Assembly: GCF_011059185.1 (NCBI RefSeq)
Contig: NZ_JAALFE010000004.1
Location: forward strand, 124,001-188,000
Direction of reading: 5' to 3'
Length of the DNA: 64,000 bases
Source of the DNA: Paragemmobacter kunshanensis
GTDB lineage: Bacteria > Pseudomonadota > Alphaproteobacteria > Rhodobacterales > Rhodobacteraceae
Below the pieces are notes generated by a model that was given only the letters and a program-made list of their open reading frames with translations, was not told where the DNA came from and did not search any database. Of the stretch, positions 5,436-33,176 are shown one piece after another. The position numbers were made by a program, and so were the translations under genes. Numbering within the stretch: the stretch's first letter is position 1; the number at the start of each line of letters is the position of its first letter.

Positions 5436-5468
5436 CTCAGCCTCTTTCACCCGTCTCGCCCCCCTCCG

Positions 5469-5573
5469 GCACCAAAAGTTTTCCCAAAAACTTTTGGTGC
5501 CCCACCGCCGAAAAATTTCGACCCGAAATTTTTCGGCCTCCGCGGGCAAAAATTTTCGTGAAAATTTTTGCCC
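5469..5573. repeat. Cluster of three AT-core hairpins after ruvB
   Basis: Three perfect inverted repeats lie in a row: arms 5469-5482/5487-5500 (loop CCCA), 5507-5520/5524-5537 (loop ACC) and 5544-5557/5560-5573 (loop GT). Each has a 14-bp stem with a core of A and T runs closed by GC at the base, but the three stem sequences differ. The first base of the cluster in transcription order is four bases after the ruvB stop codon. Similar hairpins follow other stop codons in this window. They may terminate or protect transcripts; there is no T-tract. Confidence 0.85.
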
Positions 5574-12398: not shown

Positions 12399-12443
12399 CA
12401 AATTTCTTCGAAGAAATTTGCAAAAATCTTCACAAGATTTTTG
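12399..12443. repeat. Pair of AT-core palindromes after the MFS gene
   Basis: A perfect 22-bp palindrome at 12399-12420 (centre TTCGAA) is followed directly by a hairpin with arms 12421-12430 and 12434-12443 and a CAC loop. The cluster begins five bases after the MFS stop codon in transcription order, the same placement as the ruvB cluster. Confidence 0.85.
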
Positions 12444-29530: not shown

Positions 29531-30763
<1,233 letters not shown>

Positions 30764-31086
30764 CGCCCGCACTCCCTGTTCTCTCCCCCCCGATGTAGCG
30801 CCCTTGGCCGCCACAGGAAAGGCGGAGTTTGACGCAAACTCCGGTCCGAAATCTGACGCAGATTTCGCCCCCATCCCGCATCGCCCGCACACCCGGACAT
30901 CGACCCGATGTCCCCCCCGGAATTTGCGCCAGATTCCGCCGCGAATGTCTCGCCTCAGAATTCGCCTCGCCCAACCGCCCGCCCAACCGCCCGCCTCTGA
31001 CGCTTTCGTGAACACCGCCCGCTGAAACTCCGCCCGCCTCGCTTACGTAGCTCCGCCCGTTGCAATCAATGGACAGGAGCAATGCC
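30764..31086. other. Hairpin-rich region between trpB and the DUF4394 gene
   Basis: A 323-base gap upstream of trpB holding hairpins at 30823-30843, 30847-30867 and (imperfect) 30918-30938 and 30941-30964, plus direct repeats of CCGCCCAACCG-type sequence near 30967-30995. The promoters for trpB (minus) and for the DUF4394 gene (plus; AGGAG at 31074-31078) should lie here. A 12-base match, GTGCGGGCGATG, occurs at the trpB start and again about 120 bases upstream, hinting at partial duplication. Confidence 0.55.
30823..30867. repeat. Pair of AT-core hairpins upstream of trpB
   Basis: Arms 30823-30831/30835-30843 and 30847-30855/30859-30867, each a perfect 9-bp stem with loop ACG. Unlike the other members of this set they lie 60 to 100 bases upstream of a start codon, in the place where the end of trpF would be in an uninterrupted trpF-trpB operon. 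Confidence 0.8.
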
Positions 31087-31866
31087 ATGAAGACGCTTAC
31101 GACAACCCTCATCCTCGCCGCCGCCGCCACGGGTGCGGCCCATGCCGAAACTGCGCTGGGTCTGTCGGGCGACCGCACGCTGTTGATGATCGACACCGCC
31201 ACCGCCGCCGTGACGGGCAGCGTCGAGGCGCAGGGTGTCACCCGTCTGCTCGGCATCGACTACCGCCCCGGCACCGGCAAGATCATCGGCGTCACCGATG
31301 CCCAGACCATCGTGGAAATCGACCCGATGACCGGCGCCACCATGGAAATGGCCAAGATGAACACCATGCTGCCCGTCGCCGACGGCGCCGCCGTGATCGT
31401 CGATGTGAACCCCGCCGCCGACAAGCTGCGCTTCATGTCCGGCACCACGAACCACCGCGTCGACATGGCCACGGGCGAAGTCACCGTGGACGGCGCGCTG
31501 AACTTCGATCCCGCCGATGCCAATGCCTCGGTCCTGCCGATGGTCGTCGCCGTTGCCTATACCAACAGCTACGGCAAGCCGGAAAAGACCGCGATGTTCG
31601 ACATCGACGCGGGCCTCAACGCGCTCCTGCAGCAGACCGCGCCGAATGACGGCACGCTTGCCACCATCGGCAGCCTCGGCGTCACGCTGGACGGCCCCGT
31701 CGCGATGGATATCGCCACCACCGCCGATGGCACCAACACCGCCTGGATCGCAGCCATGGGCGGGCTGCACAAGCTCGACCTCGCCACCGGCATGGTTTCC
31801 GGCACGATGCCGATCACCGGCACCGACCAGCCGATCCGCGACCTGACGATCCTGCCCGCGATGTAA
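31087..31866 (+). CDS. Secreted DUF4394 protein
   Basis: A 259-residue exported protein with a signal peptide at 1-20 (LTTTLILAAAATGAAHA) and repeated beta-strand units, such as GLSGDRTLLMIDTA, GIDYRPGTGKIIGVTDAQTIVEIDP and VDVNPAADKLRFMSGTTNH. This pattern fits DUF4394, a beta-propeller-like family of unknown function. AGGAG lies 8 bases before the ATG at 31087. It is on the plus strand, inside what is normally the minus-strand trpF-trpB unit, so it looks like an insertion. Codon use is not obviously foreign (GC-rich third positions). Confidence 0.78.
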   Translation: MKTLTTTLILAAAATGAAHAETALGLSGDRTLLMIDTATAAVTGSVEAQGVTRLLGIDYRPGTGKIIGVTDAQTIVEIDPMTGATMEMAKMNTMLPVADGAAVIVDVNPAADKLRFMSGTTNHRVDMATGEVTVDGALNFDPADANASVLPMVVAVAYTNSYGKPEKTAMFDIDAGLNALLQQTAPNDGTLATIGSLGVTLDGPVAMDIATTADGTNTAWIAAMGGLHKLDLATGMVSGTMPITGTDQPIRDLTILPAM

Positions 31867-31899
31867 GCGGTCCCCGATCCCGGGACGCTCCCCCCGGGA

Positions 31900-32171
31900 T
31901 CACCCCGCCGCCCGGACAAAGGCCGCGATCCTCCCCGCATCCTTCTGTCCGGGCGCGCTTTCCACGCCCCTGCCCACAAGGCACCGAACGGCCCCAACCG
32001 GAATTTGCATCAAATTCCGTCGCGAATTCTGCGGCAGAATTCGCACCCCCTGCGCCGCCCGCACGAAATCCGCGATCCGGGCCGCACCCCGCGCCCCGGC
32101 CCGCCCGGTATCGAACGGCCGCAAACCGGAATTTGCGTCAAATTCCGTCGCGAATTCTGCGACAGAATTCG
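31900..32171 (-). pseudogene. Two degenerate copies of the trpF 3' end with hairpin pairs
   Basis: Just beyond the trpF stop the sequence repeats the last part of trpF. A second copy with the same [12 protein letters not shown] peptide (32049-32078) lies 128 bases after the first and a third, more diverged copy (GVESAPGQKDAGRIAAFVRAA, about 31900-31970) follows. Between them are hairpin pairs, at 31999-32044 and 32127-32172. Copies 2 and 3 are in the same frame as each other but not as trpF, and neither has a start. They look like relics of tandem or replacement recombination at the gene end. Confidence 0.75.
31999..32044. repeat. Hairpin pair between trpF 3'-end copies (distal)
   Basis: Arms 31999-32007/32011-32019 (loop CAT) and 32022-32031/32035-32044 (loop CGG). 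Nearly identical in sequence to the pair at 32127-32172, unlike most hairpins of this class in the window. Confidence 0.85.
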
Positions 32172-32172
32172 C
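32127..32172. repeat. Hairpin pair at the trpF stop codon
   Basis: Arms 32127-32135/32139-32147 (loop CGT) and 32150-32159/32163-32172 (loop CGA). The last arm base is the final base of the trpF TAG stop codon, so the hairpin begins exactly at the gene end. Confidence 0.85.
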
Positions 32173-32813
32173 TACCCCTGCGCCGCCCGCACGAAATCCG
32201 CGATCCGCGCCGCATCCTTCACCCCCGGCGCGCTTTCCACACCCGATGCCACATCCACCTGCCGCGCCCCCGTCAGACGCACCGCCTCGGCCACGTTCCC
32301 GGGCGTCAGACCCCCGGCCAGCATCCAGGGCTTCAGCCATTTCCGCCCCACCAGCAGCCGCCAGTCGAAGGCCAGCCCGTTCCCCCCCGGCAGCACGGCA
32401 TCCTTCGGCGGCTTGGCGTCGATCAGCAACTGATCCGCCGCCAGCGAAATCTCGGTCAGCGCGGCCAGATCCGCCTCGCCCGCCACCCCGATCACCTTCA
32501 TCACCGGCAATCCATACCGCGCCCGGATCTCGGCCACCCGCGCCACGCTCTCATGTCCATGCAGTTGCAGCATGTCCAGCGGCACCCCCGCCACGATGGC
32601 ATCCAGCGTCGCGTCATCCGCATCCACCACCAACGCCACCTTGCACAGCCCCGGCGGCGCAGCCAGCGCCAGCGCCCGCGCCGCCTCCACCGTCACGAAA
32701 CGCGGCGAGGGGGCAAAGAAGTTGAACCCCGCATAACCCGCCCCCGCCGCCGCCACGGCATCCACATCCGCCACGGTCCGCAGACCGCAGATCTTCACCC
32801 GTACCTCTGCCAT
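32172..32813 (-). CDS. trpF: Phosphoribosylanthranilate isomerase
   Basis: Third step of tryptophan synthesis, an Amadori rearrangement on a TIM barrel. The 213 residues contain [13 protein letters not shown] (general-base Cys), [23 protein letters not shown], the [12 protein letters not shown] loop and [22 protein letters not shown] with the general-acid Asp. ATG at 32813, three bases after the lapA stop codon ends, so it is co-translated with lapA. Its own stop abuts hairpins and degenerate copies of its 3' end. Confidence 0.94.
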
Positions 32814-32816
32814 GGC

Positions 32817-33176
32817 TCAGCCCGCCTTGCGCTTCTCGATCAGCGCCAGCACATCATCCCCCGGCACCGAGCGGGAATCCCTCATCACCTCAAGCTCCCG
32901 CTCCAGCCGCGCCAGGTCCCGCCCGCGCTGGCTTGCCGTCTTGCGATGCTTGTGTTCGCGCAGCCATTCCCAGGTGAACCCGATCAGCACACCGGCCGCC
33001 ACCCCGCCCAGGATCACCAGGAACAGCGGCAGTTCCATCTGCCAGGACAGGCCCAGCAGCGCCCCCACATCCTCGGGCAGGAACCGCACCGGCACCACGG
33101 TCCGATTGGCCAGCGCCATGGTCAGCAGCACCAGCAGCAAGACGGCGATCAGGGCATAACGAAGCGTGCGCAGCAT
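32817..33176 (-). CDS. lapA: LapA-domain (DUF1049) membrane protein
   Basis: A 119-residue protein with two hydrophobic helices (about residues 5-24 and 45-68) and a charged C-terminal tail (EWLREHKHRKTASQRGRDLARLERELEVMRD) that should form a coiled coil. This matches LapA/DUF1049; in E. coli LapA works with LapB in controlling lipopolysaccharide synthesis. Between ihfB and trpF on the same strand, a position known from relatives. No LapB is in view. Confidence 0.82.
   Translation of the reverse strand: MLRTLRYALIAVLLLVLLTMALANRTVVPVRFLPEDVGALLGLSWQMELPLFLVILGGVAAGVLIGFTWEWLREHKHRKTASQRGRDLARLERELEVMRDSRSVPGDDVLALIEKRKAG

Follow-up and report, generated by a model that had tools for sequence, protein, structure and literature searches.

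Extra trpF ends, hairpin doublets and a convergent DUF4394 gene between trpF and trpB of Paragemmobacter kunshanensis

In the genome of Paragemmobacter kunshanensis (G000), the intact trpF gene is followed by two further trpF-like ends, several hairpins and a convergent DUF4394 gene before trpB is reached. How did this interval come about? The original prediction, made from the letters of one stretch of DNA, had proposed serial replacement or recombination at the trpF end with the hairpins as junctions, and had taken DUF4394 as an intruder where trpB should follow. We examined this stretch (the window, 64,000 nucleotides; positions count from its first letter) together with 18 relatives of the same genus (G001-G018; 19 genomes in all). 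Along the direction of trpF, the order is trpF, hairpin doublet 1, spacer S1, a first extra gene end (relic2), doublet 2, spacer S2, a second extra gene end (relic3), a terminator-like hairpin, DUF4394, a four-hairpin element and trpB (Table 1). The trpF stop codon TAG occupies 32174-32172, its G being the first base of doublet 1.

Table 1. Features of the trpF-trpB interval, listed along the direction of trpF (window positions).
Feature	Position	Strand	Remarks
trpF	32172..32813	minus	Intact; mostly of clade-B (G006/G018) type by identity and informative sites; PF00697, E 2.5e-40
Clade-B tract, approximate extent	32193..32861	minus	Informative sites 44 B:11 A; limits chosen post hoc
Hairpin doublet, copy 1 (FF half of a four-hairpin element)	32127..32172	minus	Fold z -6.3
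Spacer S1, doublet 1 to relic2	32105..32126	minus	
Relic2, putative second copy of the present trpF end (last ~58 nt)	32047..32104	minus	53/60 aligned positions alike to trpF 32175-32233
Hairpin doublet, copy 2	31999..32044	minus	44/46 alike to copy 1; fold z -5.2
Spacer S2, doublet 2 to relic3	31970..31998	minus	Partly like S1: 17/23 aligned positions, first 22 nt
Relic3, probable older clade-A trpF 3' end with its own TGA stop	31900..31969	minus	Mismatches 2/60 to G003, 10/60 to the present trpF
Terminator-like hairpin of the clade-A trpF/DUF4394 junction	31876..31901	minus	Similar one after trpF in G003 and G007; fold z only -1.75
DUF4394 gene, convergent with trpF	31087..31866	plus	PF14339, E 4.7e-54; common neighbour in the genus, adjoins trpF in 9/19 genus genomes
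FF doublet, degenerate, of the four-hairpin element upstream of trpB	30918..30965	minus	Element at the same place in G001, G010, G011 and G016
RR doublet of the four-hairpin element upstream of trpB	30823..30867	minus	Fold z -5.4
trpB	29531..30763	minus	PF00291, E 7.1e-42

The extra gene ends and the DUF4394 neighbour

Similarity of both relics to the 3' end of trpF is far above chance. By self-blast, relic2 (32047-32104) aligned with trpF 32175-32233 at 88% identity (E 2e-15) and relic3 (31906-31969) with trpF 32181-32244 at 83% identity (E 9e-14). The copies predicted behind the intact gene are thus real, copy 1 and copy 2 are spaced by 128 nt as had been claimed, and neither copy is in the trpF frame, both lying inside one minus-strand open reading frame (31900-32340) that differs in frame from trpF. 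Because trpF terminates ahead of both relics, no function is expected of either. An extra trpF end downstream of trpF was found in only one of 99 trpF loci, that of this genome (19 genus loci plus 80 from a named collection, some genomes being in both sets; the search reached at most 1600 nt downstream, less at contig ends, and L020, a second locus of this genome, was excluded beforehand). The further claim that each copy is flanked by a pair of hairpins held for relic2, which has a doublet on both sides; relic3 has one on the trpF side only, and the terminator-like hairpin (31876-31901) on the opposite side.

DUF4394 proved to be an ordinary neighbour. It adjoins trpF in opposite orientation in nine of the 19 genus genomes, this one counted (loci extending 1.5 kb beyond trpF), and trpB is visible past it in eight of these nine, the G007 contig ending within DUF4394. 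Of 80 loci from the named collection, 11 carry it between trpF and trpB, including records under the names Paracoccus haematequi (a MAG), Pseudotabrizicola formosa and Szabonella alba. Where DUF4394 is absent, the trpF-trpB gap is short or holds other genes (by eye). An insertion peculiar to this genome is ruled out by these counts, and the notion of an intruder has to be given up. Sisters that share the gene have an intact trpF followed by DUF4394 without relics.

In the element before trpB (30823-30965), one half is degenerate (30918-30965) and the other perfect. Upstream of trpB in G003 and G006, a palindromic repeat of another kind (arms around GAGGATATTTG) occupies the place of the four-hairpin element of G000, G001, G010, G011 and G016. 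By eye, the spacer upstream of trpB in G010, G011 and G016 resembles S1 and S2. Elsewhere in the window there are AT-rich hairpin clusters without a TGACGCA centre (three at 5468-5573, two at 12399-12443).

Clade affinities of trpF and relic3

We compared relic3 and the present trpF with the relatives over 60 nt starting from the GVES codons; 15 of the 18 relatives were comparable (G009, G012 and G015 failed to match the anchor). Relic3 was closest to G003 (2 mismatches), followed by G016 (4), G010 and G011 (6 each), G007 (7), G008 (11), and G006 and G018 (13 each). For the present trpF the order was nearly the reverse, with 3 mismatches to G006, 5 to G018, 7 to G008, 10 to G007, 12 to G003 and G016, and 14 to G010 and G011. 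The two differ from each other at 10 of 60 positions. The stop codon, the hairpin and the DUF4394 end behind relic3 likewise resemble their counterparts in G003 and G007, so that relic3, together with its stop and its terminator-like hairpin, has the look of the native trpF/DUF4394 junction in sister species. It is preceded by a doublet and a spacer, which the clade-A sisters do not have at this place.

Informative sites were defined as those at which G003, G010 and G016 agree with each other (A) against an agreement of G006 with G018 (B), five sites of neither type being set aside. ihfB plus lapA gave 23 A:11 B, trpF 11 A:40 B and relic3 8 A:2 B (Fisher 3.5e-5 and 7.7e-4); when the boundary was shifted post hoc into lapA, the counts became 23 A:7 B, 11 A:44 B and 8 A:2 B (Fisher 4.9e-7 and 4.6e-4). 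The change from A to B sites falls at about 32915-32861, at the end of lapA and the start of trpF; this blurred change would be the homologous boundary of a foreign tract. The mosaic is noisy, with 11 A sites inside the B tract. The wider region is also mixed (rpsA 22 A:16 B, relic3 plus DUF4394 18 A:10 B, trpB 5 A:4 B), indicating that exchange or lineage mixing is general here. From the clade-B trpF tract between clade-A flanks, we infer that a clade-A trpF was probably replaced by a relative's clade-B copy, with a putative non-homologous junction on the right-hand side. The original idea of repeated replacement or recombination at the trpF end is thus supported in part, for one probable replacement, since relic3 resembles the trpF of a different clade than the present gene does; relic2 needs no second one, because a local tandem duplication of the gene end with its doublet, of a kind encountered at five other loci, suffices.

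The donor itself was not seen. When 394 genomes of the family, about one for each genus, were searched at the DNA level, only this genome's own match, among the matches listed, crosses the joint between trpF and the doublet, and none of the relatives among them is closer than G018. Elsewhere in the genus, a doublet at the trpF stop occurs only in G001 (P. amnigenus HSP-20), in the same TAG-CGA arrangement; the trpF of G001 is not of clade-B type.

The four-hairpin repeat family and duplicated gene ends

A doublet consists of two hairpins at a distance of 24 nt, both with TGACGCA at the centre. The usual element is a doublet, a spacer and an inverted doublet, four hairpins in all; each trpF doublet is half an element. 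At least one doublet was present in 39 of the 43 regions fetched from this genome's hits, and both orientations in 23, giving 64 doublets in total, most of which start with GCG. The arms are highly variable yet complementary (one pair, for example, reads TA 42, AT 18 and GC 4 times). The hairpin filter used to list doublets favours complementary arms; the exact pattern search does not require arms, and all 35 exact matches in the fetched regions had paired arms in both hairpins. The genome's 36th exact match (C23:55788, outside the fetched regions) looks unpaired by eye. One full element, folded as DNA, gave z -10.0. Doublets do sit at the junctions of the trpF end, as predicted, but they are not special to it, being dispersed throughout the genome.

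The exact pattern occurred in 18 of the 19 genus genomes, 3 to 68 times where present, with no exact match of the reversed control in the genus. With two mismatches allowed, 135 places in this genome matched the pattern and 33 the reversed control; these looser counts were therefore not used. Outside the genus, the exact pattern is at chance level (147 sampled family genomes): it was found in 7 of 149 genomes, two of which belong to the genus, the other five having 1 to 5 matches each that are unpaired or hardly paired by eye, and the reversed control matched once in each of four genomes. Elements often start at a stop codon. Among 47 recognisable gene ends (83 element edges; crude coding filter, without control), 20 had a stop codon from 4 nt before to 12 nt after the first hairpin base.

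Some REP systems have an associated RAYT (Y1_Tnp) transposase gene, and REP hairpins carry a conserved GTAG-type tetranucleotide at the foot. A search for Y1_Tnp (PF01797, RAYT-type) found no gene in this genome, the control search finding PF01797 in 5 of 14 named genomes, and a RAYT-driven REP was rejected on this ground. Palindromic elements of the Rickettsia type insert in frame inside genes that stay open; this type does not fit, as the trpF stop codon instead takes its last base from the doublet. No Rfam family reached the gathering score for the element (5 of the 43 regions submitted), and no description of this repeat family was found in the titles and abstract openings searched in an open-access library.

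At trpF, copies 1 and 2 make up a 128-bp unit whose parts are alike to different degrees: the gene end at 53 of 60 positions, the doublet at 44 of 46 and the first part of the spacer at 17 of 23. Relic2 has the clade type of the present trpF, and the two are identical over its last 33 nt. The spacers are less alike than the gene end or the doublet, which a single plain duplication would not require. We read relic2 with its doublet as a probable 128-bp tandem duplication of the trpF end plus doublet. Similar duplications were found at five other loci: dgkA (L223) and L227 in this genome, L272 and L273 in G002, and L278 in G017. All five keep an inverted partner doublet, and their unit begins outside the element and ends inside it; no inverted partner is left at the trpF end. 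The spacing is 155 bp at dgkA and 95 bp in the mirrored array of L227. In G002, L272 has a 140-bp unit that is 99% identical, and the gene ends of L273 are 86-87% alike with unequal spacing. The dgkA relic was considered as a second xenologous case; over 30 positions it has 4 mismatches to its own gene, 3 to G008 and to G018 and 4 to G013 (14 relatives compared; G012, G005 and G007 left out).

Same-strand doublets served to find the five arrays. The presence of a doublet within the unit is thus built into the search, and the list is incomplete and favours units that contain a doublet. Among 134 exact doublets of G006, G010, G011, G012 and G017, same-strand neighbours were seen only at the G017 site (by eye). 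A blind test for direct repeats across elements was unconvincing: 3 of 42 loci had them, as did 7 of 215 random places, which is no clear excess. The case for duplication rests on the duplicated doublets.

The dgkA locus (PF01219; L223:1702-2321, G000:C22) begins with the gene end and a doublet; about 76 nt on, these are followed by a diverged gene end, an identical doublet and the inverted doublet. It is a second case of the trpF-end anatomy in this genome. The G017 array (L278:1418-1915) holds 6.0 tandem copies of an 83-bp flank-plus-doublet unit with 94% matches; the gene ahead of it is a putative groEL by the reading of its end. In G002, the 3' part of dgkA (about 75 codons) has undergone a recent plain tandem duplication with a truncated copy and without hairpins (L264:1000-1900). 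Three identical tandem copies of a tRNA-gene-like stretch lie at 104-bp spacing in L228:1590-1875 (G000:C24). At L252:1919-2147 (G000:C107), identical 29-bp direct repeats flank a four-hairpin element, perhaps as a long target duplication. In this genome, a single hairpin repeated within the element of L250 and an isolated weak extra hairpin in each of L212 and L248 were not counted as duplicated ends.

Possible origins of the trpF end and known systems

The reading we favour, with a probability of roughly 0.6, is a scar of two layers, a clade-B replacement of trpF that left relic3 and a later tandem duplication that gave relic2. The relics, their difference in clade, the repeat family and the recurrence of such duplications are observed; the order of events, the doublet-carrying donor and both molecular mechanisms are what we infer by comparing sequences. 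Donor DNA with a clade-B trpF, apparently carrying a doublet at its stop codon, would have recombined into a clade-A chromosome. The left exchange would lie within homologous sequence at the lapA end and trpF start (about 32915-32861), and the right end would have been attached within the resident trpF without homology, in the manner of homology-facilitated illegitimate recombination; the sequential displacement model for Vibrio cholerae immunity arrays (PMC5361080) offers a precedent for this step. The last ~70 nt of the resident gene, its stop and the terminator-like hairpin would then have stayed in front of DUF4394 as relic3. Afterwards, the 128 bp of new trpF end, doublet and spacer would have been duplicated in tandem to yield relic2 and doublet 2, perhaps via backward template switching as nascent-strand hairpins folded.

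An alternative that we regard as unlikely, though the strongest of the others, is that two replacements followed each other, as the original prediction would have it, an incoming trpF-doublet-spacer being joined twice into the resident 3' end and leaving relic3 and then relic2. The spacers behind doublets 1 and 2, homologous-looking yet less alike than their flanks, are what two related donors could give, and sequential displacement, as proposed for the T6SS immunity arrays of Vibrio cholerae (PMC5361080), is a precedent. However, the clade type of relic2 and its 33 identical terminal nucleotides make a second donor unnecessary, as is also the case for the 99% identical duplication of like kind in G002, and both non-homologous joints would have to fall at nearly one place in the spacer. 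Somewhat less probable again is an origin in place, by which an inserted hairpin element came to lie between duplicates of the trpF end and later homologous recombination turned the upstream gene into clade B, leaving relic3 unconverted. Such a mosaic needs ordinary recombination only, and L252 illustrates that identical 29-bp repeats can flank an element; but what lies behind relic3 is no doublet but a sister-type hairpin and DUF4394, and the clade-B type of relic2 would call for duplications both before and after conversion. Chance similarity is hardly credible given the self-alignment E values of 2e-15 and 9e-14. The same goes for an assembly artefact: the genome is a draft of 117 contigs, but the locus lies within a contig of 262,677 bases, substitutions distinguish the copies, and relic3 has a better match in another species than in its own genome.

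The leftover end of a sister-type trpF and the tandemly duplicated end beside a hairpin repeat suggest that the trpF end was reshaped by both gene replacement and hairpin-linked local duplication. The locus would then record in legible form how a biosynthetic gene apparently gave way to the copy of a relative, and the repeat family marks several sites of gene-end duplication; together they would give a testable system for hairpin-provoked duplication in bacterial chromosomes. One might go further and imagine the four-hairpin element as a genus-specific driver of 3'-end turnover, which sits on stop codons and provokes tandem duplication of the adjoining gene end, giving spare tails and junctions for related copies to recombine into. 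We consider this a long shot; if true, C-termini and stop codons would evolve faster wherever the element sits.

Among the relatives, the corresponding region of Tabrizicola sp. TH137 (G006) has the same gene order with a convergent DUF4394, the extra trpF ends occurring only in the present genome (99 loci). The doublets are short palindromes in many dispersed copies (64 in the 43 fetched regions), in this like REP and BIME repeats. They differ from these in having four hairpins, TGACGCA centres and freely varying complementary arms, in being at chance level outside the genus (147 sampled genomes) and in the lack of a Y1_Tnp gene in this genome. The REP/BIME repeats of Escherichia coli are likewise dispersed intergenic hairpins, and there 22 of 90 sequenced novel junctions fell at REP, secondary structure being suggested as the cause (PMC3161906). 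For the immunity arrays of V. cholerae, the sequential displacement model of Kirchberger et al. (2017, PMC5361080) leaves orphan 3' genes. The trpF scar resembles that model, and homology-facilitated illegitimate recombination, a process that follows uptake and integration of linear DNA, in that one side would be homologous and the other joined without homology, with the 3' part of the resident gene lying downstream of the incoming one; in both cases the mechanism is deduced from sequence. Unlike in the arrays, the gene at trpF is a biosynthetic one that would have given way to the copy of a relative, the relic left behind is a stub without coding function, and the junction bears a hairpin doublet.
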